A stretch of 64,000 bases of DNA. It comes from Siphonodentalium dalli (lineage: Eukaryota; Mollusca; Scaphopoda; Gadilida; Siphonodentaliidae). The notes beneath the pieces are model-generated. The model made no database searches, was not told the origin of the DNA, and saw nothing but the letters and a program-made list of their open reading frames with translations. Position numbers and translations under genes: made by a program. Location of the stretch: assembly GCA_032622095.1 (NCBI GenBank), contig CP136061.1:84170324-84234323 (forward strand), in the 5' to 3' direction. Of the stretch, positions 7,380 to 62,995 are shown in pieces; position 1 is the first letter of the stretch; the number at the start of each line of letters is the position of its first letter.

Positions 7380-7880
7380 TGGAGTGGACAAGTGGGAACA
7401 AGAAGCTTGTACAGAAAAAATTATTCAAATCGGTTCATATTTGTTAAAAGTTATTAAGTCAGACAGAATTTTCTAAGTCAAAATAAGTCGAAAATGAGGT
7501 GTAATATTACGAAAAACAGTCTGAGCCAATCCCTAGCCGCATCATGTAGAGAGGGTATTGTGAGAAGCATGTATACCAAAAATGATTGAAATCGGTTCAT
7601 ATTTGTTAAAGTTATTAAGTCGGACAGAATTTTCTAAGTCAAAATAAGTCGAAAAAGAGGCGTAACTTGAAGAAAATAAGTCGGACCGAACCGCAATTAG
7701 CATCATGCGGAGAGACCGTCTCAAAGAGATTGCATACAAAAAATTATTGAAATCGGTTCATAGTTGTTCGAGTTATGAGGTCGGACGGACGGACGGACGG
7801 ACGGACGGCCGGATGGACGGACGGACGCAGTCAATCCAGTATACCCCCCATTTTCTACGAAAGTGGGGGTATAATTATAC
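7380..7880 (+). repeat. Modular 'gtcggac / ACGG-run / hairpin' repeat
   Basis: Three diverged internal units (aaatcggttcatatttgtt, ttctaagtcaaaataagtc) are followed by a GGAC run at about 7780-7825 and the terminal phrase cagtcaatccagtataccccc, whose inverse gggggtata closes a hairpin at about 7840-7873. This body plan recurs through the window with different heads. Confidence 0.75.
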
Positions 7881-7922
7881 GAAGAAAGTGAAGAATCGAG
7901 GGAAGAAAGTACTATAACTGAT

Positions 7923-10713: not shown

Positions 10714-10835
10714 ACAAATATTTTTTGTAAATTGTGAATTATTTGGCAAGGAGCATGAATCCTGAGGGTGGGGAACCCTAGTTCAACCTCCGAATGTGTT
10801 CAGACGGATTCCTCATCAGAGACGTCAGAATATGT

Positions 10836-10970
10836 TTACATGGTTTCCTCATCAGAGTCGTCTTTTGTATCAGGTTTCATCCGGTTCCTCGGCCATGATA
10901 TCTCTGTATCTATTACTTTCCCCTTTGCTTTTTTCGTCGTCTTTGATATAATTTTTGGTACTTCAGGCCT
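10836..10970 (-). CDS. XPC: XPC exon 17 (C-terminus, stop)
   Basis: Acceptor tttgacag, then 44 codons starting [10 protein letters not shown] and ending DDSDEETM before TAA (10838-10836). Basic stretch TTKKAKGK followed by ISWPRNR, which matches the SWPQNR-type element near the end of vertebrate XPC, then an acidic tail. It enters in phase 0, as exon 16 requires. Confidence 0.85.
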   Translation of the reverse strand, partial: RPEVPKIISKTTKKAKGKVIDTEISWPRNRMKPDTKDDSDEETM

Positions 10971-13900: not shown

Positions 13901-16900
13901 TGATGCTAGCATCACCAAATTCACCCTCTGGGGACCTCATTCTGCAAATGACAGACACACTATCTCAAGGCTTGTGGATAAATAAGCTTTGTAGAATATT
14001 CTCTTGTTCTAGTTTCAGTGAATCAATGCCTATTTGATGAAATAAATTCTTAATTTCAATGTCGAGAATTTTTATTTTGCCAAAATCAGCCATTTTGTTG
14101 TCGTAAGGCCATCACTTCCACTTTCCATAATACTTATTTCTAGCTACATTGGGCAGGAATTGTGAATAAGTGACAAATTGTGAATAATTATTGGTTTTGC
14201 AGGAAGCTATTGATTTGTCGAGCAACGCATTCTTCGATGCGCAAGTAATTTCATAGGGGCGATTCATCACGTATGAAATAATTTATTCCATGGGAGACCG
14301 TAAGTTGATTGAAATGAAACATGGTGTAGTTATAACAAGACTGTTGTCTACAGAGTCCTTGGTAATGCTTAGTCAGTGAAAGTCAAACCCGATATTGTGA
14401 AAATAATAGGACTAATTGATGGCAATTGGCCTGTTAATCATATTTTGTTTACAAACGAAGCGAGTCTCTCCACATCTCACATGCAGTCACTGTTACCATC
14501 CAGGATACAAGATTGGAAACTGACAAGGTGCTTCAAGTGTATTTGAGGAAAAATAGCTACATTGTTAGTAGATAAATATGTGTTATATACACAATGTGTT
14601 TGTACCGATTCATGTATCATGAAAACGAATCATGAATCGGTACAAACACATTGTGTATATAACACGTTTATCTACCATTCGTGTGACAGAATCTACTACA
14701 CAAATTAGTTTAGGAGTTTTTTAAATAACAAAATCGTTGGAGCTTTCTTGAGTAAGTTCTCCCAAAATGCAAATGTAAGTGTCACATCATTATCTTGATT
14801 TGCTAAATTCTCCCAACCTGCAAGTTTACGCGAATATGCCTAACGGAAATTGAATTCAATTCTCTTGCACCTGCATTTTTATAATAATTATATAATAAAT
14901 ACTCCAACAAATATGTATTAGTTAATTTGTTATATGTTTTACCACAATACCCACGAAGAGGTTTTAATTTCTCACGCGATTGATGTGATGTCAATTCATT
15001 CATGATTTTGACCAGTCATGCGTGCCTTATACCGCAACTGCAGTAATGATACAGATGTCTATATCGCCAATTCGTTATCGCCAATTTTATCAGTGAATTT
15101 CATAGGAAATTGTAGATGAATTGAATGATTACCTGATCTTTCTCTGTCTTTTCATCAGATCCATATCTCCTCTTTATCTTTTCTTTAATAAAAAGACCCT
15201 TTACCAGCTTTTTCCAGTTAACGTAAACACGCTGCTCTCTCTTCTACAAGATAAAGATATTATCATAAACACGCTGCTCTCTCTTTTACAAAAATAATAA
15301 TGGTCGTTTGTTAAACTTATTATCTGAACATTTCCTAAAGGAACTACTCATCAATGAGTATTTAGTATAGAAAGGATTATATCAATTAAGACATCTCTTA
15401 TTCTGAGTTAGATATTTGCAATTTGCTTGCCTGCTGTGACAAGTAGAAATATCAGAACATTTCGAGCGCTGGAGATATATGCCGTGTTATTTATACTTGA
15501 GCGCTGGAGATAAAGGCTGTGTCATTTATACTTGTGTCGAGCGTGGGAGATATATGCCGTGTCATTTATACTTGTGTCGAGCGTGGGAGATATATGCTGT
15601 CATTTTTACCTGTGCTTCTTTCTCAATCATTATCTGCTGTTCATCATCCCATGCTAACAACAGAGCTTCTTTATTCTCTTCACAAACGACCCAACCATCA
15701 AACCTAGAATAGATAACAAACATCAAACATCTGTCCCCACAAACGACCCAACCATCAAACACAAACCACCCAACCATCAAACACAAACCACCCAACCATC
15801 AAACACAAACCACCCAACCATCAAACACAAACCACCCAACCATCAAACACAAACCACCCAACCATCAAACACAAACGACCCAACCATCAAACACAAACGA
15901 CCCAACCATCAACCTACAACTAATCATTAGCATAGCTCTGTCCCCACAAACCACCCAACCATCAAACCTACAACTAATCATTAGCATAGCTCTGTCCCCA
16001 CAAACCACCCAACCATCAAACCTACAACTAATCATTAGCATAGCTCTGTCCCCACAAACCACCCAACCATCAAACCTACAACTAATCATTAGCATAGCTC
16101 TGTCCCCACAAACCACCCAACCATCAAACCTACAACTAATCATTAGCATAGCTCTGTCCCCACAAACCACCCAACCATCAAACCTACAACTAATCATTAG
16201 CATAGCTCTGTCCCCACAAACCACCCAACCATCAAACCTACAACTAATCATTAGCATAGCTCTGTCCCCACAAACCACCCAACCATCAAACCTACAACTA
16301 ATCATTAGCATAGCTCTGTCCCCACAAACCACCCAACCATCAAACCTACAACTAATCATTAGCATAGCTCTGTCCCCACAAACCACCCAACCATCAAACC
16401 TACAACTAATCATTAGCATAGCTGTCCCCACAAACCACCCAACCATCAAACCTACAACTAATCATTAGCATAGCTCTGCTCAGAAAAGAGCTGTTAAAGT
16501 GACACAAGGACTTCGAAGTTGGTTCATGTGAATATGATAAATTTTTATAACAGTCTATAAAACTATCAACAACTACATTTAAAAATAAATAAATTTTGTT
16601 CTAATGTTTATTATTATCACTTTACCGGACGTTTTCCAGGGCATTAAAACACCATAATTACCGAGGTGCATTAACCGGAAGCGGGCGTTAATGAAACAAA
16701 TTAATGAACCCGCGGCCCGCATCCGGTTTGGGAAAAATGGTTTTGGACTCCACCTCGAATATGTATCCTATTTTCGTGTTATTATATATAGACACCCCGT
16801 ACAGTTCTGATCACTTAAGGGACCGCAGTCACCATGGTTGTCAGAAATATTTTATCAGAAATAAGCAGATGAGAAAATAGGTTCCCAATAAACTGAATAC

Positions 16901-19900
16901 ATGTATTAAGTTTGTGAACTCTCAGTTTGGAGTGAAGGCTTGCTTCTTGGACTGAGGGGTGCAAGCGGCTTAGTTCACCCAATGTGTTCAGTTCAACAGC
17001 TGCGCAGACATGCAACTGTCACCTTGGCGTTCTTATATATTGTTTGTGAAATGGAACAGAAATTGTTAATTATTGCTTCCGTACAACTTTTGGCCTTAAA
17101 TAACAGTACATGTGAGGGGTAATAATAGTAACAAGTGCACCGCTGGGTGGAGGTAACGCCCCCGACTGTACAATCAGAGAAACTTTCTGGTTAAGCGCTA
17201 TAAAAATGCCACATGTTGTTCTATATTAGCTTCAAATTTGGTCTGGTGCCACAAAAATAGAAGGAAAACTGAATTTTCTAAAAAAAAAACTGAATTTTTA
17301 AGTCGAAAAAGGGTCATAACTCTCACAAAAGTTATCCGATTGAACCGAAATTTTACCTTGACCTGTATTGCGATATTGGTAATACACAAAAAAACGGGTT
17401 TTGCAAATAAACAATCCAAAATCAAGTTATCATCTGGAAACCAAAAAAAGTAGCAGAAAACCTGAATTTTCTAAGTCCAAAAGTTATGGGGAAATCTTGT
17501 CCTCCCGGCTGGTCTATTAGCATACCAAAGATCAACTGAATTGAGTTAGCGAAACCAAAGTTATGAGTTGAAACGTTCGTACGGACGGAAGGACGGTACT
17601 ACCCACATTGAGCCCTATTGTGGTAATTTTGTTATGTGGTACTTTTTTCTCCCAAACGAACCTTAAGTGGGACTACAAATTGTGTTAGTCCAAGTGGACT
17701 TCATGTGGTATTCCACCCAGATTTTTTTTCTTTTGCAACAAAAATTACTGGCAATTACTGAATAAGCAAGAATGAATCAAATAAAACACAAACAATATAA
17801 GGAATTGCTTAATACTTTACAGATAATGTGGTACCATATGTCCTAAGATAATGTGGTACGCTATGTACCAAGGTAAGGTGGTACCCTACGTCCTTTAGTC
17901 AATACATTGAAAAATACATCCATTTAACCCTTTGAATACTGGATACTCAATAATGAGTAGGTGCTGGTTCTCATTAACTTATGTGTAAGGATGTTGAGAT
18001 AATAAGTTCAACAAACAACAATGGGTGGTTTGTTAAACTTATTTTCTCAACATCCTTACAAATGAAAGAATGAGAATCCATTTTAGAAAATTCATGATTT
18101 TTTCTGTCTGCGTCTGCTCATATATTATCAGAACATCCCTACAAATGAACAATGGATAATTCCAATGTATACATTTAGCACTCGATGTAGATTCCATTCA
18201 GTAAACAAAGGGTTAATTTGACACATTTAAATACCGACTTATGTTCTAAGATAATGTGGTAACCTACATCCCAAGATATTAATGTGGTAATATGTCCTAA
18301 GATCATGTGTCGCCATTTATCCAGAGATAACATATAAGATAATGTGGTAACCTACATCCCAAGATATTAATGTGGTATCATATGTCCTAAGATCATGTGT
18401 CGCCATTTATCCCGAGATAACAAATAAGATAATGTGGTAACCTACATCCCAAGATATTAATGTGGTAATATATGTCCTAAGATCATGTGTTGCCATTTAT
18501 CCCGAGATAACAAATAAGATAATGTGGTAACCTACATCCCAAGATATTAATGTGGTAATATATGTCCTAAGATCATGTGTCGCAATTTATCCCGAGATAA
18601 CATATAAGATAATGTGGTAACCTACATCCCAAGATATTAATGTGGTAATATATGTCCTAAGATCATGTGTCGCCATTTATCCCGAGATAACATATAAGAT
18701 AATGTGGTAACCTACATCCCAAGATATTAATGTGGTAATATATGTCCTAAGATCATGTGTCGCAATTTATCCCGAGATAACATATAAGATAATGTGATAA
18801 CCTACATCCCAAGATATTAATGTGGTAATATATGTCCTAAGATCATGTGTCGCCATTTATCCCGAGATAACATATAAGATAATGTGGTAACCAACATCCC
18901 AAGATATTAATGTGGTAATATATGTCCTAAGATCATGTGTCGCCATTTATCCAGAGATAACAAATAAGATAACGTGGTAACCTACATCCAAAGATATTAA
19001 TGTGGTAATATATGTCCTAATCATGTAATAATAATAATAATAATACAAGTGCACCGCTGGGCGGAGGTAACGCCCCCGACTGTACAATCAGAAAAAGTTT
19101 CTGGTTAAGCGCTATAAAAATGCCACATGTTGTTCTATATTAGCTTCAAATTTGGTCTGGTGCCACAAAAATAGAAGGAAAACTGAATTTTCTAAAAAAA
19201 AAACTGAATTTTTTAAGTCGAAAAAGGGTCATAACTCTCACAACAATTATCCGATTGAACCGAAATTTTACCTTGACCTGTGTTGCGATATTGGTAATAC
19301 ACAAAAAAACGGGTTTTGCAAATAAACAATCCAAAATCAAGTTATCATCTGGAAACCAAAAAAAGTAGCAGAAAACTGAATTTTCTAAGTCCAAAAAGGG
19401 GCGTAACTCTGGAACAAATGGGCGGACGAAACCACGGCTATGGGGAAATCTTGTCCCCCCCTGGCTGGTCTATTGGCATACCAAAGATCAACTGAATTGA
19501 ATTAGCGAAACCAAAGTTATGAGTTGAAACGTTCGTATGCCACAGAAAACTGAATTTTCTAAGTCCAAAAAGGGGCGTAACTCTGGAAAAAATGGGCGGA
19601 CGAAACCGCAGTTATGGGGAAATCTTGTCCCCCGGCTGGTCTATTAGCATACCAAAGATCAACCGAATTGAGTTAGCGAAACCAAAGTTATGAGTTGAAA
19701 CGTTCGTACGGACAGATGGACGGAAGGACGGACGGACGGACGGACGGACGGAGAGCTCCACTATATACCCCCAAATCTCCATCGGAGATCGGGGGCATAA
19801 TAAAGGTTTATAGTCACGACTCCACAAATGTGCTCTCGGACTTAACAATATACACATAAAACATATGCAACACAATACAAATATACAACATAAACTGCGG

Positions 19901-21633
19901 CTATTTCTTCACTTTAGGCAATGTGGGCCGAAGACCAAATGCCACTTCAAACAGGTGGGTTTTAAGTGCTGATTCAAAATCATTTATGTTTTGTGGAATC
20001 CTCAAGTGATCAGGAAGTAGATCCCACAGCTTTGGGCCAGCCACGCCGCATGTAACCAGATCCCCAAGTTTATAGACAAGTTGATTTGCCTTGGCGGACC
20101 TGATCTGACGGGCTGATAGCGCTGAATGAGATCCGACAAGTACGATGGTGCCAGATTATTTGAACACTTATAAGTGAAAAGCAAGACCTTAAAATGGATC
20201 CTCTGCTCAACGGAAAGCCAGTGTAATTTAGCTAGAATTGGAGTGATGTTATCAAATTTCTTTGTTTTGGTAACAATCCTAGCAGCACAGTTTTGTACAA
20301 GCTGAAGTTTCCGAATAAGGTATGTGTTGCAACCAAATAAAAGTGAGTTACAGTCTATACGGCTTGTGACAAATGCATGTACGAGTTGTTTGGCCGTCTC
20401 TTCGTCGACCACATTTCGCACCCTGCTGATAGTGCTCAGGTGATAATATGCCAATCTGCAAGCTTGCATTACATGCGCCTCCGCAGATAGATTGTCATCC
20501 ACCATATACCCCAGGTTGCCGACCATAGTCGACTTAGAGACTATCTGATTCTCCAAGCACAATATCGTGGGTAGTTGCTTTTTGCAACTGATACGGTAAC
20601 CCGATATATATCAGTTCAGTTTTGTCAGGATTCAACTTAAGGAAATTATCAGTCATCCAGATTTTAATATCGGATACACAGTGCTCTAGGGATTCTCTGG
20701 CTGGAATATCACAACCAGGGTTGAAATGAACGTAGAGTTGGGAATAACCATTTATCCCAAGATAACAAATAAGATGTGACATGGACATGGCCTCGTATTG
20801 CCCTCATGGAGTGACGTCCATATCCAATTTCGGGCCGAACACTCAGATATTAGATATGGACTCCAGGAGAGTGACATGAGGCCATGGACCATGTCACCCG
20901 TACGGAAAATGGATACCCTATAATATATTGGACAATTACAACAATACATGTAAATTACATCTGACACAGAAATGTTTTATATCTTGTTTGACAGGGCTAA
21001 GGACAAAGCTCAAGCAAGATATGATTATAAAATAGATAATGTGGTATCCAACGCCCCAGATAATGTGGTACTGCATGTCCTGAAATAGGATGTGTCCTAC
21101 ATACTCAAAACAATGCACTTTTCACATTTGGCATATGAACTACTTTCGGAGTATCTGGGATAATTACGGTACATACCGGTATATGGAATAGAATAGAATA
21201 GAATATTTTATTTGACCACGCGAACAATGGACCCTCGCGTGTATCAATAGAACACAATATTACAAGTTACAAGAATAAAATGAAATTAACATATTACATA
21301 GTTATATAATGATCAGGCCAGTTGGCAAATTGTATGACAAAACCAATCAAAATGAGAAGTTGCGCATATAGATTGCATGGATATGTTAACATAAACCAGA
21401 TAGCCTACATGCATTATGATAATGAAAGCATGGTGAAATATCATCAATACCGGTATGTGGTTTTTTAAATGTATTTGTTTATTTAGTTATCTTTTTATAC
21501 CACACTATTATGTATTTCACTCATTATATACTACAGTACCGGTAGCCAGTTAAAGCGGTTTTCAATGCAATTATTTTGCATTATAAAGTTTCAACACGTG
21601 TCCGGAGCAGGATGCTCTATCTGTAGAATTTTG

Positions 21634-21668
<35 letters not shown>

Positions 21669-24600
21669 TAGGCACATGCCCCCCTGGCTATGCGCCTGAA
21701 CAATTGTATATATGCGAGTAATAATATACATTATGTGTATCATATGGTTCGCCAGTACTGTCACGTTTTTGAGCGAACTGTCGCCCATACAAATCGGTTA
21801 CCTAATACTCTGCATGTTGGGTATAGAGTCTACACGATAATTCTCCATTGTACCGTTATCCAATCAAAATCGTCCTTGTATACGTTGTTTGAGGAAGATC
21901 GTCTTTATTTAATGGTAAAGGCATTGTTTACATTAAAAATACTAGTCGAATCAAAGATAACGATGCCGGTAATTGTCTCAATTAACTAACATATTTCCAA
22001 TAATTTTATTATATATTGACCAACAGTCGTTCGGAAAAAGGGCATCACCCGTTTTCGAACTAAGTATCGACTGAAGCAAAAGTTTTTCATTGTTGATTAA
22101 ATATCCTACAGCCCGATCGTTCTGTCAGCAGCCGAATCGATCTGTCAGCATATCGATTCTAAGGTCTTCCTGACCTGTTCTAGACATGATAGTCACACAA
22201 AAATGTTTTTATATTCTACTTCACTTTACTTGGGCCAAGTTAGGGCGAATTTCATTCTACTTAGGTCTTGGAACGTGATCTTGATAAGAAAAAATGCAGA
22301 AAATTGTTTTTTGAAAGAAACAAATTTTGATTTATTTTTGTCAACAAAAACTTTTGAAAAAGTAAAATAAACGAAAGAAATTGCTCCCTGGAATAACCGT
22401 TTATATTTTACACACCACATGACATTAAACATCTTGAATCAGTGTACCTGTAAGCACGAAACAGTTCTGAGATGTAGCCTATGCTAAAAAATTCAAATCC
22501 ACAAACGAAGGCATGCCTTTTACAAAAGGTGTGCTCGATTGAGTTTCTGTCTACCGGTGCCAACCGGTGCACAAAAAATAAAGTCCCAATGTTTATATTA
22601 AAAGATACGATAGGAAGGTCAATATTGAAACAGATAATTGACTTCAAACGTATAACATGGCTTCTAAATGTTAATGCAAGGGCATAATAATTATGAAACA
22701 TCGCCTTCACCCCAAACACGAATAATACAATACCAATATACAGAAGTCATGTCTAAATTTATCATAAATTTTACCACGAATTATCGAAAACTGGAGTCGT
22801 CCGCACACTTCACAGTAGCGTTATTTTCAGTGAAGAAAACAAAATCGAAATATAATGAAATGATTAGGTCTTATCTATATGCTTCACACAGTCTTTGTAA
22901 AGCTTTTTAATATATAAAGTACGAAGTATTGGTGTTTACATTTGAACCTTATTTGACACAATCCACGTCCATGTGTGCCTTATGGATCCTTATGTGGTAC
23001 CTATTTTTGGCCGCCATTTTGTCGATCCCAAAAATAAAATCTCGGAGCATATCTCGCGGCAAAATCTCGCGGTATTTCCCGCCGGCAATCGTCGTTATAG
23101 TCTCATGAGTTACTTCCCTTCAATCCGTCCGATCCGTACGTCTTATGATAAAGACGTACGTCTTGATATCCGGACTAATGTGGTATTTTTTTTCTGCGAC
23201 GGACTCTGACCACATTGAGACGTTCTGGACAAAATTATAATGTGGTTTACCACATAAACCCAAAATACCACATAAGGCACACTTGGACGCAGATTGTACA
23301 ACATAAGGTTCAAATGTAAACGCGGACGGACGGAAGGACGGACGGACGGAGGGCTCCACTATATACCCCCAAATCTCCATCGGAGATCGGGGGCATATTA
23401 TCAAGCTTTACGGTTTTATTAACGGCCCTCCATGAATTATTAACAGCCCTCTGGCCTATTAACGGCCCTTGACTGGTTAAAACCTTAGGGGCATGTTATA
23501 ACTCAAAACTATCACCAAGTATTCATAGTAATAATTTTGATGCCCATGAAAAACGTAATATTCCCTGGCACTAAACCTACAATATAAGTCTGTTAAAGAA
23601 TATAAGAAAAAATTATTAAAATTGTAAAAAATTGTAAAAAATAATAACAAATGATGAAAAATTGTTCGGCCAATGCATTCTCTTATATATGCGAGGCGAC
23701 CTATGGTTGACTCGCATATATAAGAGAATGCATTGGCACAGGGTATATGGGTTGATAAAAAAATCGGACTTGGCACTGAAAGGGTTAAAGTGGCATTACA
23801 GATCAAATTCAGGTTAGTCCAATAAGATACCAACAAAGTTCAATCAAAATTTGACAATAAATGTTACAAAAGGTCAAATTATTGAAACATAATCTGAAAA
23901 TAATATTTAGACTAAGATATTTGAACTTACAACACCATCGGTGATGTTTGTTGGCAAATCATTTTAACAGTTTTGTTACCATTTTAAACAATGGTTTAAA
24001 CATATGAAATGTCATTATTGAAGAATGAATATAAGGAAAACATTTCTCCATGATTTTCTCAGTGGTGATTTTTTTTAACAGACTTTTATCATTTTTGCAT
24101 TCTCATAAAAGCAGCTGATACGATTGTAGAATGCTAAAATTGATTCTCGCAAATTTTGAAGGATTTAAAGTCTGTTGACTTAAGGTGGGTAAAGCCATGA
24201 TGTAAAATCATATCCAATCATCGCCTAGTTATGACATCTGTGATGTAAATCAAATCAATCATCATTACATTGGGTGGGTGAATCCATGATGTAAACCACA
24301 TCCAATCATTGCCTAGATATGACTTACATTGGGTGGGTGAAGCCATGATGTAAACCACATCCAATCATTGCCTAGTTATGACTTACATTGGGTGGGTGAA
24401 TCCATGATGTAAACCACATCCAATCATTGCCTAGTTATGACTTACATTGGGTGGGTGAATCCATGATGTAAATCAAATCCAATCATCGCCTCGGCACAGT
24501 CAACACCAAGCTTCTTAGCAACCTTCTTTAGTCCAGGCACTGAAAAGTTTAAATGAAAATTCAAACAGTTGAAAGATCCTATAATATATTCTTAGATTGT

Positions 24601-33600: not shown

Positions 33601-36600
33601 CATCACCAAATTCACCCTCTGGGAACCTCATTCTGCTGAGGTGTAAGCAGAATAAGGTCCCCAGAGGGTGAATTTGGTGATGCTAGCCCGCTATGCGGGC
33701 TAGCATCACTAAATTCACCCTCTGGGGACCTCATTCTGCAAATGCTTGAATGTTAGTAGCAGAGCTTTCCCTGAAAAACAACAAGAGCATTGCTAGGGAG
33801 TGGCAAAATACGCTCCTGATAATTTCAACAATGGGCCATAACTCCGGTGAAAATTGGCCGGCTGAAGCCAAATTTGAACTTGTCCTGTATTTTGGGCTAG
33901 TAAACTCAAATACCAAATTTTATGCCATTCAGTTCAGACTTAAAGTTCTCATCCAGAAACAAATAATAAGGGCAAATGCCAACAAAAAGGGCTATAACTT
34001 GGGTGAAAATTGGCGGGCGGAACCCAAATTTGAACTTGACCTGTATTTTGGGCTAGTAAATTCACATACCAAATTTCATTTCATTCAGGTCTGACTTACT
34101 AAAGTTCTCATCCGGAAACGAAAATTAAGTGCAAATTCCAACAAAAAGGGCCGTAATTCCGGTGAAAATTGGCAGGCGGAACCCAAATTCGAATTTGACA
34201 TGTATTTTGTGCTAGTAAACCCACATACCAAATTTCAGTCCATTCAGTTGAGACTTACTACAGTTATAATCCGGAAAAAAAAAGCAAATGGAAGGACGGA
34301 CCAATAACATAAATTTTTTTTCTCAAAACGGGCATATGAAAACAAAGAATGGTGCATTACCCAACCATATGTTAGTAACAAACAGTCCAGATAGCTGCAC
34401 TTTATCAACCTTAATTTGAATTGTGAAAAATTAGACAAGAATATATAAACAGAAAGTACCTTCCTCGACTTTGACTTTACCATCTTGTATGGGACTTCCC
34501 CAGGCTACAAATAAAAAGAAAGATAATTATTCAAGTTGGTCCTGATATTCGATTTGAACTTACATTCAAAGTTTAATTTTCAAACATTCAGATGTCTTAA
34601 ATTATAAAGCTAGACATTCTTTTTTTGTTTTCCATCAATAACTCCTTCTCATTAATAACAAGGGCTGTGTACTGAAGATGTCGCTCTTCTTTTGTGTATT
34701 TGTGAATATTTTATAGTATGATCGATTATGCATACTATACCTTTATAGATCTCGCTTCTTTCAGCCAGGTTTCTTTTGAATGAAGCTTTAAAATAGAATG
34801 AAGAAATAGTAAGAGAGATAGTACAAAGAGATAGTACAAAGAGATAGTACAAAGGGGAAGAGAATCAATTTAGGAATCAGGAGGTTAACTTACCATGTGT
34901 ACAACCTCTCCCCTAACAGATAATCTAGCCACATCCTTGTGAATGGGGGAAGCCTAATAGAAATCAGGAGGTTAATAACTTACTGTGTGCACACCCCCCC
35001 CTATCAGACCATCTAGCCACATCCCTGTGAATGGGGGAATCCATTTAGGAATCAGGTAAACTTACCGTGTTCACACACACCCCCCCCCCAACAGACCATC
35101 TAGCCACATCCCTGTGAATTGGGGAATCCATTTAGGAATCAGGTTAACTTACCGTGTGCACACCCCCCCCCCCCCAACAGACCATCTAGCCACATCCCTG
35201 TGAATGGGGGAATCAGGTGAACTTACCGTGTTCACACACCCCCCCCCCAACAGACCATCTAGCCACATCCCTGTGAATGGGGGAATCCATTTAGGAATCA
35301 GGTTAACTTACCGTGTGCACCTCCCCCCCCAACAGACCATCTAGCCACATCCCTGTGAATGGGGGAATCCATTTAGGAATCAGGAGGTTATCTTACTGTG
35401 TGCACCCCCTAAACAAACTTACTGTATGCACCCCCCCCCCCCCAACAGACCATCTAGCACATCCCTGTGAATTGGGGAATCCATTTAGGAATCAGGAGGT
35501 TAACTTACCCTGTGCACACACCCCCTCCCCAAACAGACCATCTAGCCACATCCCTGTGAAAGGGGTAATCTATTTAGGAAGAATCAGGTGGTTAACTTAC
35601 CGTGTGCATCCCCCCTCCAACAGACCATCTAGCAACATCCCTGTAGGAATCAGATAGCTAACTTACCGTGTGCACCCCCCCCCCCCCCCCCCCATCCCCA
35701 ACAGACCATCTAGCCACATTCCTGTATGAATCAGATAGCTAACTTACCGTGTGCATCCCCCCCTCCAACAGACCATCTAGCCACATCCCTGTATGAATCA
35801 GATAGCTAACTTACCGTGTGCACGCAATCTCGAGAATAGACAGGTTCATTTTTCTTAAGATAACCTACAGGAATCGATGAATCGGGATAGATCGCCTCAA
35901 ATTTCAGCAGGTGTCTCCTCAGGAAGTACCTAAATTAGAAACAAGAGAGATAACTCTATAATAGTATCGATGAATCTGGATAGATCACTTCAAATTTCAG
36001 CAGGTGTCTCCTTAGGAAGTACAATGTACCTAAGTGAGAAACAAGAGATATAACTCTATAATAGTATCGGATGAATCAGGAGAGACGGGAATACGCTAAC
36101 AATTGTCATGTTTAATTTGAGGATTAACCCTTTCTATACTAAATACTCATTGACGAGTAGTTATCCAATAGGAAATGTTCAGATAATAACATTTGACACA
36201 TCCAAAGGAGGCTTAAGCAAAATGAAGTCCCCAGCGGGTAAATTTGGTGATGCTAGCCCACTGTGTGGGATAGCCAGAGACGTGGCGACAGGGAAGGTTT
36301 GGGGAGGTGTCTCACACCCCACCAACTTTGGTCAAAATTTTCAACAATTGCAAATGTCATACCTGCCAAAACAATAGTTGGAAATTTCACACCAACAATA
36401 GGTTGAAAATGTTCTTGTAGTTTGATTTCAAACAATTTATTGGAAGGAATTAATTGTTTTTGGAACAATATTTGTATATTTTCCTATTTTTGGTAAAAAC
36501 TTTGGACTGAAATTGTCATCAGTTGGAAATTTTCCAATCTTAGGGGGGGGGGGGGGGGGGGGGGTGGCAGGTTGGACATTTCCAACACTTGGAAAGCTTG

Positions 36601-45600: not shown

Positions 45601-48600
45601 TTGGAGATAAATTTTAATACCATAATTGCCTATTCTATTGTGTGTATAACACCTATTTTGTAAACTTCATCTTTACACCCTATTGTAGGTATACAGCTTC
45701 CTACTGTGGGTATAAATGTCTACTGTGGGAGTAAATGTTCAAACGTAATTTCATGTGTTAAATGTTTATACCCATAGTAGAATTACATCATATTTAGCAA
45801 AAATAGTTCCTTAATTTGGAACATTCATTTAAAATTGGAAGGGTCAGGAAATAAATTAGATATGAGAAAAATTTCCTGCATTTCAATCCAATGTAGCTTG
45901 TTAGTGTTATATGAATTAGGAAACATATGAATGGTAATTCCAAGTGACTGATCGATCGGAAACAGTCTGACATCACGACGTAAATGTATGTATCACTACG
46001 CGTGACGCGACGCACATAGCGTCGTGTAAAGTAAACAGCAGAGTAGTTGAATTCGTTGAACAGATACAAAAAATAATAATTATGGAATAAATAAAATACA
46101 CGCATAGTAGCCGTGAGTACAAAATTTTCACCACTCGTAACCACTCGCTAACAAGTTCGTGGTTAAAACCACAATTCCAATCGTGTTGAAAATTTGGTAT
46201 TCTCGGCTACTATGGGTGTATTCTATATATATTCATATAACAATTATAATTGTCTCACTGTATGACAAGACATGACAGAGCTTGGGCGACTGTATATGCT
46301 ATATTTACAATTTTCTCACCGTTGCTGTACGACAAGACATATGAAAGAGGTATCGTAGCATGGTCCTCAAATTCTTCGTGCTTGCCGATAATGCCCCTCG
46401 AACAGTCTATGGCTGTTGAAGAAGAAAAGGCATGTGTCATTATATCAGGAGAACAACGGACAAGATACATGGGAATCATAGCTTCCTGAAATTTTGCGAA
46501 AACTCTGTGCCAATGCATTCTCTTATATATGCTAGTCTCCCATAGGGAGCCTCACGTATATAAGACAATAATTGGCCTAAAAATATTAACCTAGACCTTG
46601 TAAGTCCCTATGGAACACTCGCATATATAAGAGAATGCACTGGCACAGGGTCTTTAATGAGGCACCAACATAGCTCCCGTCATGAAAGGGTTTACACTTT
46701 CAATACTAAATACTCTATTAACCCTTTACCCAACAAAACGGCCAAAACTGGCCAAATAAGGCTTCAACAGCCTAAATTATCTTGGGTCTGTCTCAATAAA
46801 ACCATACAAATATGGATATCATTGGAACCGGCTCCTTGACCACATTGTGATAGTTACAGTTATGCCCTGTGCCAATGCATTCTCTTATATATGCAAGTCG
46901 ACCATAGGTCGCCTCGCATATATAAGAGAATGCATTGACCAATTTTTAATGTGTTAAGCCAATGCATTCTCTTATATATGCGAGGCGACCTATGGTCGAC
47001 TCGCATATATAAGAGAATGCATTGGCACAGGGCCCTCCTGTTGGGTAAAGGGTTAACAAGTAGTAGAACAGTACGTCGTTTGTAGAACTTATTATCTGAA
47101 CAATTTCCCACCAATAAATTGGACTCCTTCTATACTTGTATTATCTGCCGTCTGCTTATTTTTCCTGGAAACCCCTCCAGATGAATAATAGACCATTCCA
47201 ATGGATACTTTTATAGCCGAGTGGGAGAAACCATTAAGTATAGAAAGGGTTAACTTACTTATCCATTCTTCCATTGAAACCATGTATACCTCAATCGCCA
47301 TGTCGGTATCTGTAATGTTAACACAGAGTGTACATCCCTGCAAATCAATAATAGACCATTCCAATGTACACATTTTAACTGACTATCCATTTAGAAAAGA
47401 AAGGGTTAAATCACAGTAATATTATCTGTCGTCTGCTTTTATCACCTTATCATTCCTCCAAATCAATAATAGACCATTCCGATGTACACATTTTAAATGA
47501 CTGGGAGAATCCATTTAGTATAGAACGGGTAAAATCAGTTAAATTATCCACTGTCTGCTTTTACCACCAAATCAATAATAGACCATTCCAATGTACATGT
47601 TTTAACTGACTGGGAGAATCCATTTAGTATAGAACGGGTTAAATCACAGTAAATTTATCAGTCGTCCCATTTTATCACCTTAATATCCGTCCAAATCAAT
47701 AATAGAACATTTCCAATGTACAAGTTTTAACTGACTGGGAGAATCCATTTAGTAGAGAAAGGCCTATTAATGAAGCTATTTTTATCCCAGAACAGAGCAT
47801 GAAATGTGACAAAATTGAGAAGTAAATTGTACAGATACACAAATCAAGTTACCATCCCTTTTAATGGATGACAAGTCCTATCCACGCCTATCAGGGTATT
47901 GAATAAATCCACGCCTATCAGGGTATGAACCAGGTTCACCAGCAGTGGATAGCTTGTTTGTCTAATAGCAGGGTTTCCACTTGGGTAAAAATGTAGGGAC
48001 AGTAGAAGCTAGGATAGAACTGGCTGACCATGGTTAAAATGTAGGGTCCGTAGAACCTAGGATATTACAAGCCGACCATGGTTAAAATGTAGGGTCCGTA
48101 GAACCTAGGATATTACAAGCTGACCATGGTTAAAATGTAGGGTCCGTAGAACCTAGGATATTACAAGCCGACCATGGTCAAAATGTAGGGTCCGTAGAAC
48201 CTAGGATATTACAAGCCGACCATGGTTTAAATGTAGGGTGCGTAGAAACTAGGATACGACGGGCTGACCATAGTGAGTTGTATGAACATTTTGAAATTCC
48301 ATGCCCAAAACCCCCCTATTTCCTTACATCAGAGAATAATGCTGGGCGGTTCTATTGGGCTAAAAATACCGCCGCAATTTGAAAATCACCCCACATTACA
48401 CACAATTACATGTTATTTTCATTAGTAACAAGAAATTTAACCTAATTTATCTTTTATCATCTATGAACAAAAGACAACCCTGGTCATCGATACATAGATG
48501 TCATGGTAATATCGGATCAATCTAATCCTGAGCACGGAATTACTATTTATGACCCGCCATATCAAATCCAGTCGTAAGTCGGGATTTTTTTTACCCTGTG

Positions 48601-51600: not shown

Positions 51601-54600
51601 AACCATTTATACATCTATAACCGTTTATACATCTATAACCGTTTATACATCTATAACCATTTATACATCTATAACCATTATACATCTATAACCATTTATA
51701 CATCTATAACCATTTATACATCTATAACCATTATACATCTATAACCGTTTATACATCTATAACCGTTATACATCTATAACCATTTATACATCTATAACCA
51801 TTTATACATCTATAACCGTTTATACATCTATAACCGTTTATACATCTATAACCATTTATACATCTATAACCATTATACATCTATAACCATTTATACATCT
51901 ATAACCATTTATACATCTATAACCATGTATACATCTATAACCGTTTATACAACTAGAACCATTTATACATCTATAACCATTTATACATCTATAACCGTTT
52001 ATACATCTATAACCATTTATACATCTATAACCGTTTATACATCTATAACCGTTTATACATCTATAACCATTTATACATCTATAACCATTTATACATCTAT
52101 AACCGTTATACATCTATAACCGTTTATACATCTATAACCGTTTATACATCTATAACCATTTATACATCTATAACCGTTATACATCTATAACCGTTTATAC
52201 ATCTATAACCGTTATACATCTATAACCATTTATACATCTATAACCATTTATACATCTATAACCATTTATACATCTATAACCATTTATACATCTATAACCG
52301 TTTAAACATTTATACATCTATAACCGTTTATACATCTATAACCATTTATACACCTATAACCATTTATACATCTATAACTGTTTCAGCCGAATTACTGCCA
52401 TTATTCTATGAAAAAGAGTTTTCTACACGAATCAGATGTTGGCAATTGTGCGAATCAATTTTGATTTTGTTATTCTGCTGTGTTATTTAATTTCATATAT
52501 AAAACAGACTAACATAGCGCTACAGTTTAGCGTTAAACAACCAATTGAGGCAGTGCATCACAAACTATAAAGGCAGATAATATTTCTTTCAAAATGGCGG
52601 TGTCAAGCTACCAACGTAATTCCTTGTGCAGGTTAGTTTGAGACGCCATATCTCCGTTCTTGTGTGAAGGTTTGCACTGAAACTTTACAAACGAACAGAG
52701 AACAGATTACTTAATGCACATGCCTTTTCGTTATGCGAGTTTCCTTTCCAGTTAAAGGTGGATTATCTCTTCAGCAACATGATCTATTTATAGTTTCCTG
52801 GGTATGAAATAGTACATACGAATCGAAGACCCCTGTCCGGAAACGCATCTATCAATTAATATTCATTTTACATATAATTAAAATTAGTCTGTGCCGTTCA
52901 ATAATGGTCCCTGATATTCACGAAAGTCTTATTTATTTGCGTTTCTTCGTTATTTTCAGTTATTTTAATCATTGAAAATAAGCATATGATACACTCTAGG
53001 TCATATCTAGTCGATTCGCACTTAAAAATTACAATAGATACAATCAATCAGAGACATTTTGCGGTAAGCAAGCGTTCGAAGCACTACCTTGGATGCCTCT
53101 ATCTAAAAGTTCTATTTATAGAACAAAGAAGTGTCCCATTAATTGAATAAAATATTATCGACATAAAATCAATATTAATTGATAGAATTGTTTCCGGGCA
53201 GGGATTTCCAACTCATACGTATTATTTAATACCTAGGAAACTATCTAAAATTTATTGTTTAAAGAGATAATCCATCTTTTAAGATCCTGGCAGTACAGTA
53301 ATGCCCTAAATAATCGACTCCTTAACCACATAAGAATTATGGGTAACTTTTCAGGATTTAGTCGGAAATATGGCTTTTTGCCATTCGTCCGAAAGCTCTC
53401 AGTGAAAGCCATATTTCCGACTAAATCCTGAAAAGTTACCAATAATTCTGCTGTGGTTAAGAAGTCGATTATTTAGGGCATTATTGTACCACATACTACA
53501 ATGACTCACGGTTTCTCTTGTTCTTGGGTGATTTATTTGTAGATGGTTTCTTAAGATTCCTCTGGACAGGTGATGTTTGCTCTTCAAAGTCACTGTCCGA
53601 GCTGAAGTTTATAATATTAATTCAACATTCAATGTATATTTTAACATGGACATGACATGTTACTTTAACATTCAATGTATATTTTAAAATCGACAAGAGA
53701 CATTACTTTAGCAATCAATGCATATTTTAACATGGACAGGACAGAACCCAGATTTCAAGATAAAATATCAACAATTCCAACTAAACAAAGAAGATAATAA
53801 TGTTATCAGAGATGCAGGGGTCGAGTTTTGGTAGCTATCCCGCAGTGGGCTAGCAACAGCACATTCACCTTCTGGGGGACCTCATTCTGCTTAGATCTCC
53901 TCTCCTGGAAAGTATATGTAGTCTCATATTAACATTTGTAGTTACTGGGGAACTTCAATCTGATCCTACCGGTAGGTCTCCCATTGCAGTTGAGGCCTAA
54001 GCAGAACGAGGTTACCAGAGGGTGAATTAATTTGGTGGTGCTAGCCCATCGTGCGGGATAGCATCACTAAATTCACCCTCTGGGTACCTCATTCTATGGT
54101 AGTTATGCTAAACATGGGCTTGGTTTTCGAACTCAATCAAGACATTGTTGAGCAAGTCTCATATATTGATATTTGTTCATGATATCCTGAAAAATTCAAG
54201 AAAATGAACTAATTAAGGGTCGTAACTCAGTCAAAAGTAGGAAAACCAGGCCGTTTTCTGACTTGATTAAAACAATGTTGAGAAAGTCTCATATACCGAA
54301 TATTAACAAAATCAGTTGGTATTTGTTCAAGTTATCGCACTATCGCCATCTGTGGATGCCCGCTGGTGAACACACCTCACCAGATTTAGGTTGAGTTTTT
54401 TTTAATCTCAACCATAAAAGAAGGATAACTCTATATGACAAACCTCCATATCAAGTTTCATTGAAATCTGATAAATAATGGCTGAGATATCAGCGCGGAG
54501 GGAGAGAAATCCATTGTTTCCAGACAAGCAAAGAAGGGCAAATGGAAAATATTCTTGATCGGCATTTGCCTCTCATTATAAAACACACCTGGTGGATACA

Positions 54601-57600
54601 ATAGTGGACTAGTACTGTATAAGTTGCTTTAAAGACTCACTCGAGATTTCTAACATTGCTCTCTTCATTAGAATCACAGAAATATTTGCTAGTATTCTTT
54701 GTTTGTTTTGCTTTGCCTTTTTTGGTTACTTTATCCTTGTTATTTGGCTGCTTGGCGAGTTTCGGGTGGTTTTTCTTCCCACTAGACATCTTCTTTTCTC
54801 TACCATCTTCAGTCATGTTCTTGTGTTTCGTTTTAGCTGAATGTTCTGACTGAGTACTGCTTGAAGTATTTGACCTTGACCTAAATCCTGGAAGTGGAGG
54901 GAACGTTTCCTTTCCTTTTGTTTTCTGGCACAGTTCGTTCTGAAATGATAATTAATATGAAAACAATTAAAGATGGATTATCTCTTCATATAACAATTTT
55001 GGAATAGTTTTGTGGGTATAAAATAATAAATATGAATTGAAGAATGCGACCCGGAAATGCTTCTATCAATTAATATTAATTATATTTCGAATATTTTCTG
55101 ATATAATGCAATGATTAAAAGGGACCATTATATTTGCTTTATTTTTAGAACAGACCATTCAGGCGATAAGAGATTCTTGGAGTGCTCCCATTGCTACACA
55201 CCAAACATCAAATGTCTCAGGTGGATTGTTTCTATTGTTATATTCTATAGTAGTGATGTGACGATACGGGGGTTATCGGTAAAAGCCGATAGCCGATATT
55301 TTCAGTAGAATTATCGGCCGATCCGATACAGATACCGATAAGTCTTGTACGTGAACCAAACTCCATATCAATTTGTCTTTTAAATTACATCACTATTCTA
55401 TAGTTACAAGCGATAATTAATATAATTAACGTTGTTTATTGGTGACAAAATTACACAATAAAATTTCTGGTCTCTGTTAACAGTAACCACTATTGGTCGT
55501 AAGCTAAATGTTCACCCATATTTGACCAGAAAATGTTTGAAATATAATCAATATTAATCGATAGAAGCATTTCCGGACAGGGGTCTTCGATTTATACCTA
55601 ATATTTTATATTCAATTTTTTTTACGAGAACAGTTGTAGATTAGGTCCTACGTAATATACGGGCATGGCTTTATAATAACAACACATCGCGATACATATA
55701 ATAATAACACGATAAAGACGTTTAATTACGAGAACTGCGATGTATTTCGACGAAGTTTTGCATTTTTCCATAACGCGACCAACTTCAAAAGCCGTGATCG
55801 AATTCATGATCGCTTTGCGCGTGCAAACTTTATATACCACTGTTGTGTATCTATGCGTTGTCAATGAGTTACCACGTGATCATGTGCTATGCTTCTGTTT
55901 ACATGTGACAATCATGTGATCGGACCGATGCTCACGTGACTTCGTCTACAACACAAAATCTTCGGCTAACTTCGGAATTTTTTTTAATCGTTATCAAAAT
56001 AACGATTGGCGGCCGAATATTTGATTATATGCGCCTAATGGACATTATATATATATTATCGGTATATTGAAAGAAAATACTATATATTTTTTCAGGATCA
56101 TATTCCTTTAATATCAATGTAAAAGATTATTAAATATAAAACAATGAGATTTTGAAGATGTATACTTAATATTGTAGTGGGGACAATATAGGTCAACAAA
56201 TACATGAAATACTGGTACATAGACTTTAAAGATGGTCAATCTCTTTATAAACATGTGTTATATAGTTACCGGGGTATAAAGATGGTATATCTCTTTGTAA
56301 ACATGTGTTATATAGTTACCGGGGTATAAAGATGGTCTCTCTCTTTGTAAACATGTGTTATATAGTTACCGGGGTATAAAGATGGTCTATCTCTTTGTAA
56401 ACATGTGTTATATAGTTACCGGGGTATAAAGATGGTCTATCTCTTTGTAAACATGTGTTATATAGTTACCGGGGTAAAAAGATGGTCTATCTCTTTGTAA
56501 ACATGTGTTATATAGTTACCGGGATATAAAGATGGTCTATCTCTTTGTAAACATGTGTTATATAGTTACCGGGGTATAAAGATGGTCTATCTCTTTGTAA
56601 ACATGTGTTATATAGTTACCGGGGTAAAAAGATGGTCTATCTCTTTGTAAACATGTGTTATATAGTTACCGGGATATAAAGATGGCCTATCTCTTTGTAA
56701 ACATGTGTTATATAGTTACCGGGGTATAAAGATGGTCTATCTCTTTGTAAACATATATGTGTTATATAGTTACCGGGGTATAAAGATGGTCTATCTCTTT
56801 GTAAACATGTGTTATATAGTTACAGGGGTATAAAGATGGTCTATCTCCCATTAATCGCCTCAAATTTTATCTTCTGCAAATTAGGGGATATAGAAACCTC
56901 CCAGAAGGGAAAAAGTAACTAGAAACAATGTTAATTTGAGACTATAGATTCAAAAGATGAAGCCTAAGCAGAATGAAGTCCCCGCTGTGCGGGATAGCAT
57001 CACTATATTCACCCTCTGGGGACCTCTTTGAATACTCACATGTGGCACTTTGAATGTAACAGGATGATGAGACATGACGAGGCGAGCATCGAGATGCAAC
57101 ACTCTTAATATAATGATGAACACCTGAAAATAACCAGGAAATATTAATACAGATTAATATAATGATGAACAACTGAAAATAACCAGGAAATATTTATACA
57201 GATTAATATAATAATGAACAGCTGAAAATAACCAGGAAATATTTATACAGATTAATATAATGATGAACACCTGAAAATAACCAGGAAATATTTATACAGA
57301 TTAATATAATAATGAACAGCTGAAAATAACCAGGAAATATTAATACAGATTAATATAATAATGAACAGCTGAAAATAACCAGGAAATATTTATACAGATT
57401 AATATAATGATGAACGGCTGAAAATAACCAGGAAATATTTATACAGATTAATATAATGATGAACGGCTGAAAATAACCAGGAAATATTAATACAGATTAA
57501 TATAATAATGAACAGCTGAAAATAACCAGGAAATATTTATACAGATTAATATAATGATGAACGGCTGAAAATAACCAGGAAATATTTATACAGATTAATA

Positions 57601-60600
57601 TAATAATGAACAGCTGAAAATAACCAGGAAATATTAATACATATTAATATAATAATGAACGGCTGAAAATAACCAGGAAATAGTAATACAGATTAATATA
57701 ATAATGAACGGCTGAAAATCACCAGGAAATATTAATACAGACTAATATAATAATGAACACCTGAAAATAACCAGGAAATATTAATACAGATTAATATAAT
57801 GATGAACGGCTGAAAATAACCAGGAAATATTAATACAGATTAATACAAGAGGTGGCATCAGAGATGCTGTGTCTCGTTTTCGGTGGCTTACCGCCGGTGG
57901 CTACCGCCAATTGGTGTGCATCAGTATCGGTAGACTAATTAATAGGTAAAATCGAAAAATGACTAATTAAGGGCCATAACTCCATCAAATTTTATCGGGC
58001 TAGGCTGGTTTTCGAACTCGTCCGAAATATTCTTGGCAAGTATGTCTATTCCAAATTTTAAACAAATCGGAGAACGTTTGTTGAAGTTATCGCGCTAACG
58101 AGCTGACAATTCGTGAAAAATGACTAATTAAGGGCCATAACTCTATCAAATTTTATCGGACGAGGCCGGTTTTCGAACTCATCCGAGATATTCTTGGGAG
58201 ACACCTGTATACCAAATTTCAATCAAATCGGATAACGTTTGTTGAAGTTATCGCGCTAACGAGCTGAAAATTCATGAAAAATGACTAATTAAGGGTCATA
58301 ACTCTATCAAATTTTATCGGACCAGGCCGGTTTTCGAACTCATCCGAGATATTCTTGGGAGACACCTATATACCAAATTTCAATCAAATCGGATAACGTT
58401 TGTTGAAGTTATCGCGCTAACGAGCTGAAAATTCAAAGGGCCATAACTCTGTAATAAATGTGCGGACGAACCCGATTTTTTGTCTGCAGCTTACGAGCAT
58501 GGATATTTTTTAATCCGTCAATAAACGGTTGAGTTATAAGCAAAACACGCCCGCCCGCCTGCCCGCCCGTCCGCCCGCCCGTCCGCCGCCCACCGTCCCT
58601 CATCAAACTATAAGTCGAGTTTTGGAAAAAAACTCGACTAATAATAATGAACACCTGAAAATAACCAGGAAATATTAATACAGATTAATATAATGATGAA
58701 CGGCTGAAAATAACCAGGAAATATTAATACAGATTAATATAATGATGAACGGCTGAAAATAACCAGGAAATATTAATACAGATCAGGCCAATATAAATAA
58801 ATTGCTAGATTTACACCCAACTTTTTCAGAAAAATGAGTCGGAAGGGCAAATTAATTTTTTTATATTTTATTCATCTTAACATAAGTGGTGATGGACAGT
58901 TCTAGATATTGAAGCAGTATCCTATCTAAGGAGATTTAGATTATCAAAATACCAAAATAATTGTCAAATTATAAGTCAACAAGGACCATAACTCTGGTTA
59001 AAATAGGCGGACGGGACCCAAATTCAAACTTGACCTGTATTTTGGGCTAGTAAACTCACAAACCAAATTTAATTCCATTCAGTTTAGACTCACTAAAGTT
59101 ATCATCCCGAAATGAAAATTGAGTACAAATTCCAACAAAAAGGGCTGTAACTGGTGTAACTTAATCTGTATTTTGGGCTAGTAAACCCACACAACAAATT
59201 TCAGTCCATTTAGATTAGACATACTAAAATTATCATCCGGAAACGAAAAAAGTGAATGGACAGACGGAAAGGACCAATAACATAATATGTCGTTTTTTTT
59301 CAAAACGGGCATGAAGGCAGCTGCGGTGGGGCAGCATTAAAGATTCTGTAGCAGTGCATTCTCTTATATATACATAGAGAGCCTCGCATATCTAAGAGAA
59401 TGCACTGGCCTACAAGGTGAAGGTAAATATTGTTAAGCCAATGGATTCTCCTATATATGCGAGGCTCCCAATGGGAGACTCGCATATATAAGAGAATGCA
59501 TCAATTGGCACAGGGTTTTCAAAAAATTTCAGGAAGCACCTGTTATGGAAGGGTTTACAGTAAAATTTATTTTGACATGCATCTACTATTTTCAAAATGG
59601 CAAACGCAATAGTTTAATGAGGTAAAAGTTTTGTTGACCAAAATGTTTTTGAGGATTTTTTATTTTATGGACTATTGGACAACCATGAATAAATGTACGT
59701 TTGCAGTAGATTTCAGTCGATATATCATTACTTTTATTATCAATATGATCATAGGTAACTCACCATAACATAACTGTTCTCATATATGTAACTCACTGTA
59801 ATATAATTGTTCTCACACCGTAATAATTGTTCTCATAAAGATAACTCACCGTAACAATAGTTCTCATATAGCAGCTCACCATATAATAATTGTTCTTATA
59901 TCAGGGATGAGAATGGCTGAGAGTCAAAAACACTGAAATGACAGCCGAAGGCGGGGGAGGGTATGGGAGGGGGTGTCCCCCTCCCCTAGATGGGGGGTTT
60001 GGGGGTTCTCCCCCAAGAAAATTTTAGATTTTTCAGTGCCCTTAGAGCGAATCTGGGCTATTCTGAAGCCAAAATTATAGTTGGAGAATTACTAACATTT
60101 TGTATATGAATTCAATGAAAAATTATGTTAAACACATCATGCATCACATTACAGGTAGTTTTAGTACTTTGTTATTGGTACCCATATTTCAGACTCACTA
60201 CTGGTAGGGTATATTAAGCATGCATAATAAAGAAAATGTACTCATCGCTTTGGTTTCCTCAATATTCTGTCCAATGGTAATGTCTATCACACTTTCAACA
60301 CAAACTATTTTAGTCTTTGAATGTAAGGTCCTCCAGGTAAAGAATACAGATCATCATCAAGTCACCATTTGTTCATTATTAATCACATATATACAAATGT
60401 ACATTGACCACTTTACAGGTTAAATTTTCACTGACAAATCTTTCTTTTTTTCACATTTACTGAAAGCTGCTCCAGGGCTCTTTTTCTACAGTTTTTCTTC
60501 TCTCTCTGCTCGTGTTTAGCTAGTTCTTCTTTTTGCTCTAACGCAGAGGCAGCCTTCGTTTTAGCTTTGGAGAGAGGAATACTTCGTTTGATCTTGAGTT

Positions 60601-62935: not shown

Positions 62936-62995
62936 CTGAAGCAGTCTGTTATACTGTAAGTGGAATTATAGTATGGTCATTAAAATATATATATA

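Follow-up and report, generated by a model that had tools for sequence, protein, structure and literature searches.

Background

How do tandem arrays come to lie across the splice junctions of a conserved gene, and does their number at a single locus call for a mechanism that acts at exon borders? The question is raised by a 64,000-nucleotide stretch of the genome of the scaphopod mollusc Siphonodentalium dalli (hereafter the window), which carries a gene of the XPC/Rad4 family. An earlier note on this DNA reported that several XPC junctions abut minisatellites whose units are copies of the junction itself, and offered two readings, namely a duplication mechanism acting at splice junctions, or a filter by which arrays survive only where splicing is preserved. 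Here we delineate the junction arrays, compare their number and placement with chance expectation, relate them to a class of repeats already described in amphioxus, and weigh the explanations for their origin.

Results and discussion

The XPC/Rad4 gene and its repeat context

The XPC/Rad4 gene is on the minus strand of the window, and 17 exons join to give a frame of 565 amino acids without an internal stop codon. Exons 1 to 16, which were set by reading phase, form a single open frame of 521 amino acids, in which the Rad4 (transglutaminase-like), BHD1, BHD2 and BHD3 domains all score above the Pfam cut-offs; exon 17 completes the frame (Table 1). The 565-residue protein is matched to human XPC with E=1.7e-118, and a second, weaker stretch of the human protein (19.8 bits) crosses the junction between exons 1 and 2. 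Since the human match begins at residue 289, "exon 1" is the first exon of the window and not of the gene, the earlier exons lying outside the window. The XPC exons in the window are 45-299 bp long. By eye, the end of exon 17 with its stop codon is apparently duplicated in tandem just downstream (10790-10860, minus strand), where TCTGATGAGGAA occurs twice at a distance of about 36 bp.

Mobile elements and further repeats are found both within and around the gene. A hAT transposase remnant comprises three reading-frame pieces (60431-62400, minus strand), the last of which contains the PF05699 match while the other two remain below the cut-off. Several Helentron/Pearl-like elements combine a tetranucleotide microsatellite with nearby repeats of 160-174 bp, and in this they resemble the non-autonomous Pearl/HINE Helentrons of bivalves, for which the same build of microsatellite and tandem repeats is described (PMC7492417). 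They are separate mobile elements and not the makers of the junction arrays. Pieces of a Copia-like retrotransposon were recognized by eye at 7875-9238 (plus strand), one of them with an RVT_2 match below the cut-off (E=0.006) and two with none, as were frames resembling the end of a LINE reverse transcriptase at 20005-20803 (minus strand), of which the portion 20005-20610 gave no Pfam match. An array of about 110 copies of an 18-bp unit occupies 50397-52378 in intron 4, away from the junctions. Additional arrays outside the XPC exons (1375-2191 and 4090-5346, with 24-bp and ~164-bp units) indicate that array density is high across the whole window. No tRNA gene was found in the window by ARAGORN.

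Table 1. Positions of the XPC exons, junction arrays and mobile elements discussed in the text (coordinates of the window)
Feature	Position	Strand	Evidence and remarks
XPC exon 1 (first in window)	62891..62953	-	open frame with exon 2; human XPC match
XPC exon 2	57040..57123	-	phase-set frame; human XPC match
XPC exon 9	35815..35929	-	phase-set frame; human XPC match
XPC exon 14	24446..24539	-	phase-set frame; human XPC match
XPC exon 15	15610..15703	-	phase-set frame; human XPC match
XPC exon 17 and stop codon	10836..10970	-	in phase; closes the 565-aa frame
Junction array, exon 1 donor, proximal block	62620..62922	-	units of 33 bp with GTGAGTT and 15 or more exon bases; 49/60 identical
Exon 1 donor array, second block	59745..59915	-	split off by the inserted hAT element; unit found in these two blocks only within the window
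Junction array, exon 2 acceptor	57105..57845	-	~15 copies of a 49-bp unit (19 exon bases and, with TTTTCAG, 30 intron bases); 48/49 identical
Exon 2 acceptor array, second block	58641..58783	-	set apart by the inserted Helentron-like element
Exon 6 donor and decayed copy 69 bp downstream	46236..46350 (approximate)	-	weak; 33/45 identical
Exon 9 acceptor, duplicated once	35870..36070 (approximate)	-	at least 30 exon bases, shift ~100 bp; 56/67 identical
Junction array, exon 9 donor	34862..35822	-	mostly 66-92-bp units, 8 exon bases and GTAAGTT; 38/39 identical
Junction array, exon 14 donor	24200..24491	-	59-bp units, 44 exon bases and GTAAGTCATAACTAG; 57/57 identical
Junction array, exon 15 acceptor	15681..16478	-	units of 54 bp (acceptor with the first 23 bases of the exon) and of 22 bp (exon sequence only); 27/29 identical
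Junction array, exon 15 donor	15462..15614	-	35-40-bp units beginning at the donor, 5 exon bases; 33/37 identical
Exon 16 acceptor and one upstream copy 42 bp off	15220..15300	-	~20 exon bases; 24/30 at shift 42, 17/18 in aligned core
hAT-family transposon remnant splitting exon 1 array	59930..62610 (outer limits by eye)	-	PF05699 in 60431-61186, E=8e-6
Helentron/Pearl-like elements	7401-7827, 11981-12565, 19369-19752, 57954-58591		tetranucleotide run beside tandem repeats of 160-174 bp

Junction-spanning copies in the XPC gene

Each of 32 junctions, represented by 30 exon and 30 intron bases, was compared with the 1.5 kb on either side of it, and a match was required to cross the junction by 5 bases. 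This gapped scan recovered a junction-spanning copy on the intron side at nine of the 32 XPC junctions; on the opposite side of these nine, again within 1.5 kb, there was none. Seven of the copies are strong (score 45 or more), namely those of the exon 1 (60), exon 9 (73), exon 14 (114) and exon 15 (52) donors and of the exon 2 (93), exon 9 (82) and exon 15 (48) acceptors, and two are weak, those of the exon 16 acceptor (31) and the exon 6 donor (30). An ungapped 30-base scan with a cut-off of 21/30 detected six of the 32 junctions of exons 1-16 (the exon 1, 9 and 14 donors and the exon 2, 15 and 16 acceptors), missing three that the gapped scan picks up. A control matched 30 junctions against the ends of other introns, without the requirement of spanning. 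The best foreign-intron scores of the nine copy-bearing junctions were 21-28, including 24 for the exon 16 acceptor and 28 for the exon 6 donor. Two junctions outside the nine, the exon 2 and exon 5 donors, scored 35 and 36 against other introns; hence the copies at the exon 16 acceptor and the exon 6 donor are within the control range, and a score of about 30 is by itself no proof.

The five junctions named at the outset (the exon 1, 9 and 14 donors and the exon 2 and 15 acceptors) do adjoin arrays of units that contain the junction in question together with exon bases, and the exon 15 donor, which had been put forward as a possible sixth, likewise bears a real junction array. The TRF array at the exon 1 donor overlaps the exon by 32 bases, and of the 1029 bp in intron 9, 978 belong to TRF arrays. 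Many units contain decoy splice signals, with 12 donors in the exon 9 array, 14 acceptors in that of exon 2 and 11 acceptors in that of exon 15. The hAT element interrupts the exon 1 array, and a Helentron-like element with 161-bp repeats and a tetranucleotide run interrupts that of exon 2; both arrays therefore look older than the respective insertions. Five whole units, those of the donor arrays of exons 1, 14 and 15 and of the acceptor arrays of exons 2 and 15, were absent elsewhere in the window, which suggests that they were probably made in place. A 32-base G-rich piece of the exon 9 unit, the sole part of it that was searched, recurs at 38403, and by eye this piece of the array at 34910-35760 (minus strand) is also present near 42460, just past the exon 7 donor. 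It may be a transposon end that was caught in the array unit.

Other repeats close to XPC exons are not copies of a junction. Small duplications had also been noted at the acceptors of exons 7, 16 and 17: that of exon 16 holds as a weak case with its nearly identical core, but the 89-bp repeat at exon 7 matches only positions -30 to -5 and ends before the AG, and the scan gave no spanning copy at the exon 17 acceptor. Arrays are indeed present beside exons 4 and 5, as had been remarked, but they stop short of the exon; at score cut-offs of 40 and 50 the repeats at the exon 4, 5, 7 and 10 acceptors end 14, 21, 8 and 7 bp before it. In the case of exon 5 the acceptor is fixed by phase at 47309/47310. 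The unit of this array matches on both sides of the exon (47174-47690), with one 18-base match at 2976, and like words were seen by eye near 18.2 kb and 15.4 kb; judged by these sequences, the exon 5 array may be transposon-derived.

Relationship to the mirages of amphioxus

The earlier note knew of no described class of this kind, which is incorrect: tandem repeats that span exon-intron boundaries are known from amphioxus as "mirages", and these are exactly such structures (PMC3087553, PMC3902484). Their units span the boundary on either side of an exon in Adh3, the globins BflGb6/BflGb9, troponin C and PGBD5 (the last two in PMC3902484, troponin C by citation), are tens to ~160 bp long and homogenised within an array, and many contain AG or GT; the XPC arrays share the boundary-spanning tandem units, unit lengths in that range, the apparent homogenisation and the many units with a splice dinucleotide. 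RT-PCR suggested that mirages leave splicing undisturbed (PMC3087553), and this is reported for Adh3, globin and troponin C and suggested for PGBD5 (PMC3087553, PMC3902484). Our literature search met the term "mirage" for such repeats only in these two papers, and among the matches listed it found no report of mirages in molluscs. The XPC arrays differ in that seven strong and two weak cases occur in one gene of a non-cephalochordate host, and in being known here from the sequence of one assembly. What is new is thus the number of mirages in one gene and the host outside the cephalochordates, the kind itself having already been named.

Two further systems offer a more distant likeness. The human gene IFI6 (6-16) reportedly contains a minisatellite that gives multiple splice donor sites, to go by the title of a study by Turri from 1995. 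It is comparable, by that title, in having repeated donor sites in a minisatellite; unlike this single human locus with donors in a transcript, the XPC decoys are seen in genomic DNA alone. Intron creation by internal tandem duplication, which Rogers in 1989 and Gao and Lynch in 2009 are said to have described, likewise involves a duplication that bears splice signals. In XPC, by contrast, existing introns gain junction copies, and the ends of introns 1, 14 and 15 are not mutual copies.

Chance, density and placement of the arrays

The expected number of one-sided spanning copies was obtained from 3000 random intronic positions, 2216 of them outside dispersed repeats. Against the nine of 32 seen in this one gene, which was picked after the pattern had been noticed, 3.3 are expected from all intronic positions (P 3.8e-3) and 2.3 from those outside dispersed repeats (P 2.6e-4). 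With a cut-off of 26, nine are again seen where the two expectations are 3.7 (P 0.0085) and 2.7 (P 9.3e-4); with cut-offs of 36 and 45, seven are seen and 1.7-2.9 expected (P 0.0013-0.023). A smaller run of the null (30 junctions, 2500 positions) gave expectations of 2.7 and 1.8.

Of the 46,258 bp in the 15 introns that separate exons 1 to 16, TRF arrays account for 12,041 bp (26%). From the nearest to the farthest distance bin the array coverage is 20%, 31%, 33%, 32%, 32%, 28%, 18% and 28%, and is thus lowest beside the exons and at 800-1600 bp. The 31 merged arrays have 62 edges, of which four are in exons (2.6 per kb), four are intronic and within 25 bp of an exon (5.3 per kb) and the other 54 are deeper (1.2 per kb). 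Edges are thus 4-5 times denser in the first 25 intron bp than beyond, a figure that depends on four edges. The arrays are therefore fairly evenly spread, with a moderate pile-up of their ends at exons.

Placement was also simulated with 16 arrays hand-chosen from 34 merged TRF arrays, the native DNA being shared equally among the 15 introns. Three Helentron-like arrays, one MITE pair and the arrays under score 90 were left out of this set, and blocks of one array were merged; nine of these 16 hand-chosen non-transposon arrays span a junction or sit within 25 bp of one. Six or more spanning arrays were obtained in 0 of 3000 runs with 26 and 46 kb of native intron DNA, and with a probability of 0.0013 at 15 kb, 0.004 at 10 kb, 0.015 at 7.5 kb, 0.07 at 5 kb and 0.23 at 3.5 kb; the excess loses significance if the ancestral introns averaged ~330 bp or less. 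As much of the intron DNA consists of transposons and array growth, the original claim that the junction arrays are far more than chance would place in 52 kb hinges on native intron length. An excess over expectation is borne out, but it is 3-4-fold and gone if the ancestral introns were short, so that the claim was overstated. Purely random placement explains the spanning excess and the denser edges beside exons only with such short ancestral introns.

A duplication process aimed at splice junctions, as might arise from transcription, R-loops, nucleosome edges or fork stalling at exon borders, would account for the excess of spanning copies, for the density of array edges in the first 25 intron bp and for the share of hand-chosen arrays at or near a junction. 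Nevertheless, we regard such a process as unlikely. Array coverage is no higher near the junctions than far off, which favours a non-targeted process; the spanning excess loses significance once native intron DNA totals no more than 5 kb (P 0.07 and 0.11); and the edge excess amounts to 4 intron and 4 exon edges in a single gene chosen afterwards. A junction-aimed mechanism, the first of the two readings originally offered, is hence not needed.

Decoy splice sites and their conservation

Decoys were counted as the sites that match each array's own motif, sites missed by the motifs remaining uncounted. On this basis 44 of the 49 decoys at seven junctions would bring a stop codon into frame if used. 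For the donors these are all 12 at exon 9, both at exon 14, 3 of the 6 at exon 1 and 2 of the 3 at exon 15; for the acceptors they are 13 of the 14 at exon 2, all 11 at exon 15 and the single one at exon 9. The outer, exon-proximal junctions yield the open 565-aa frame. The other reading proposed at the outset, that only splicing-preserving arrays are retained, fits both these consequences and the confinement of the copies to the intron side.

The decoys might alternatively owe their persistence to selection or to exchange with the functional copy, as a store of spare junctions that can replace the used one after contraction or as a tuner of XPC splicing. In three arrays (10, 14 and 10 units) the splice cores are among the better-conserved stretches of the unit, with rank P values of 0.061, 0.204 and 0.080; in this test the functional unit is left out of the exon 1 and exon 9 sets, as is one 26-bp unit of exon 9. 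This high rank hints that decoy sites may be retained rather than strictly neutral, and the 12 decoy donors of exon 9, recognised by GTAAG, stand at successive unit spacing with no gap from a lost site. However, no array is significant singly, so that the sequences give at most a hint and no firm sign of selection on the decoys. The units were partly recognised by the site itself, most of the decoys would cause a stop, and the exon 15 acceptor array is too uniform for the test (site rank P 0.88). That value comes from a run with fewer units (3, 12, 5 and 9), in which the cutting method lost most units, in which the other site ranks were P 0.31, 0.62 and 0.26, and which is superseded for three arrays. 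The functional copy is slightly less like the decoys than these are among themselves at exons 1, 2, 14 (3 units) and 15, and more like them at exon 9. On balance it is quite improbable that the decoys are kept in this way.

Origin of the junction arrays

We consider it likely that the XPC junction arrays are mirage-type minisatellites, in which ordinary local tandem duplications across a junction were tolerated and later expanded and homogenised. In such a history a local tandem duplication would by chance cover an exon-intron junction, the copy beside the exon would stay in use for splicing, and the remaining copies would turn into intron while the mRNA is unchanged. Selection at the protein level would hold the exon-side copy, and the intron-side copies could expand, contract and homogenise like those of any minisatellite. 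Subsequent transposon insertions would then have stretched the introns and split some of the arrays. Exon definition favours, on both sides of an exon, the splice-site copy nearest the other exon end. With exons as short as these, pairing across the exon between the closest 3' and 5' splice sites is likely to be the reason that the outer copies are ignored, in which case mis-splicing would be presumed absent.

The introns themselves could have been born by tandem duplication of exon segments, of the Rogers or Gao and Lynch type, or from introner elements that carry splice sites. Every unit has exon bases and most have a splice site, and the amphioxus work proposes mirages as a source of new introns (PMC3087553); yet for introns 1, 14 and 15 the donor units have no match at the opposite intron end, and the five units searched whole are not dispersed within the window, which makes such a birth very improbable. 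Equally remote is an assembly artefact with repeats collapsed or expanded around true junctions, since, although tandem arrays are often misassembled, as one amphioxus mirage was in a draft (PMC3087553), the units diverge by substitutions and indels, a separate transposon insertion divides each of two arrays and the coding frame is unbroken; the copy numbers of the arrays may nonetheless be wrong in the assembly.

Conclusions

The junction arrays of XPC are real and unusual in density, and as mirage-type minisatellites they would be the tolerated product of ordinary tandem duplication. A much broader scenario, to which we give little credence, is that junction-spanning minisatellites might be genome-wide and recurrent outside the cephalochordates, seeded or kept preferentially at junctions, with decoys preserved because the functional site is replaced time and again by exchange with array units; the junctions of conserved genes would then evolve via a pool of tandem spares. 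The XPC locus also carries a warning that in such genomes simple geometry and selection can be enough to make tandem arrays end at exons. If mirages are this dense in lophotrochozoans, they are no oddity of amphioxus, and at such density they would be natural tests of how the spliceosome chooses among near-identical sites and of how introns grow.
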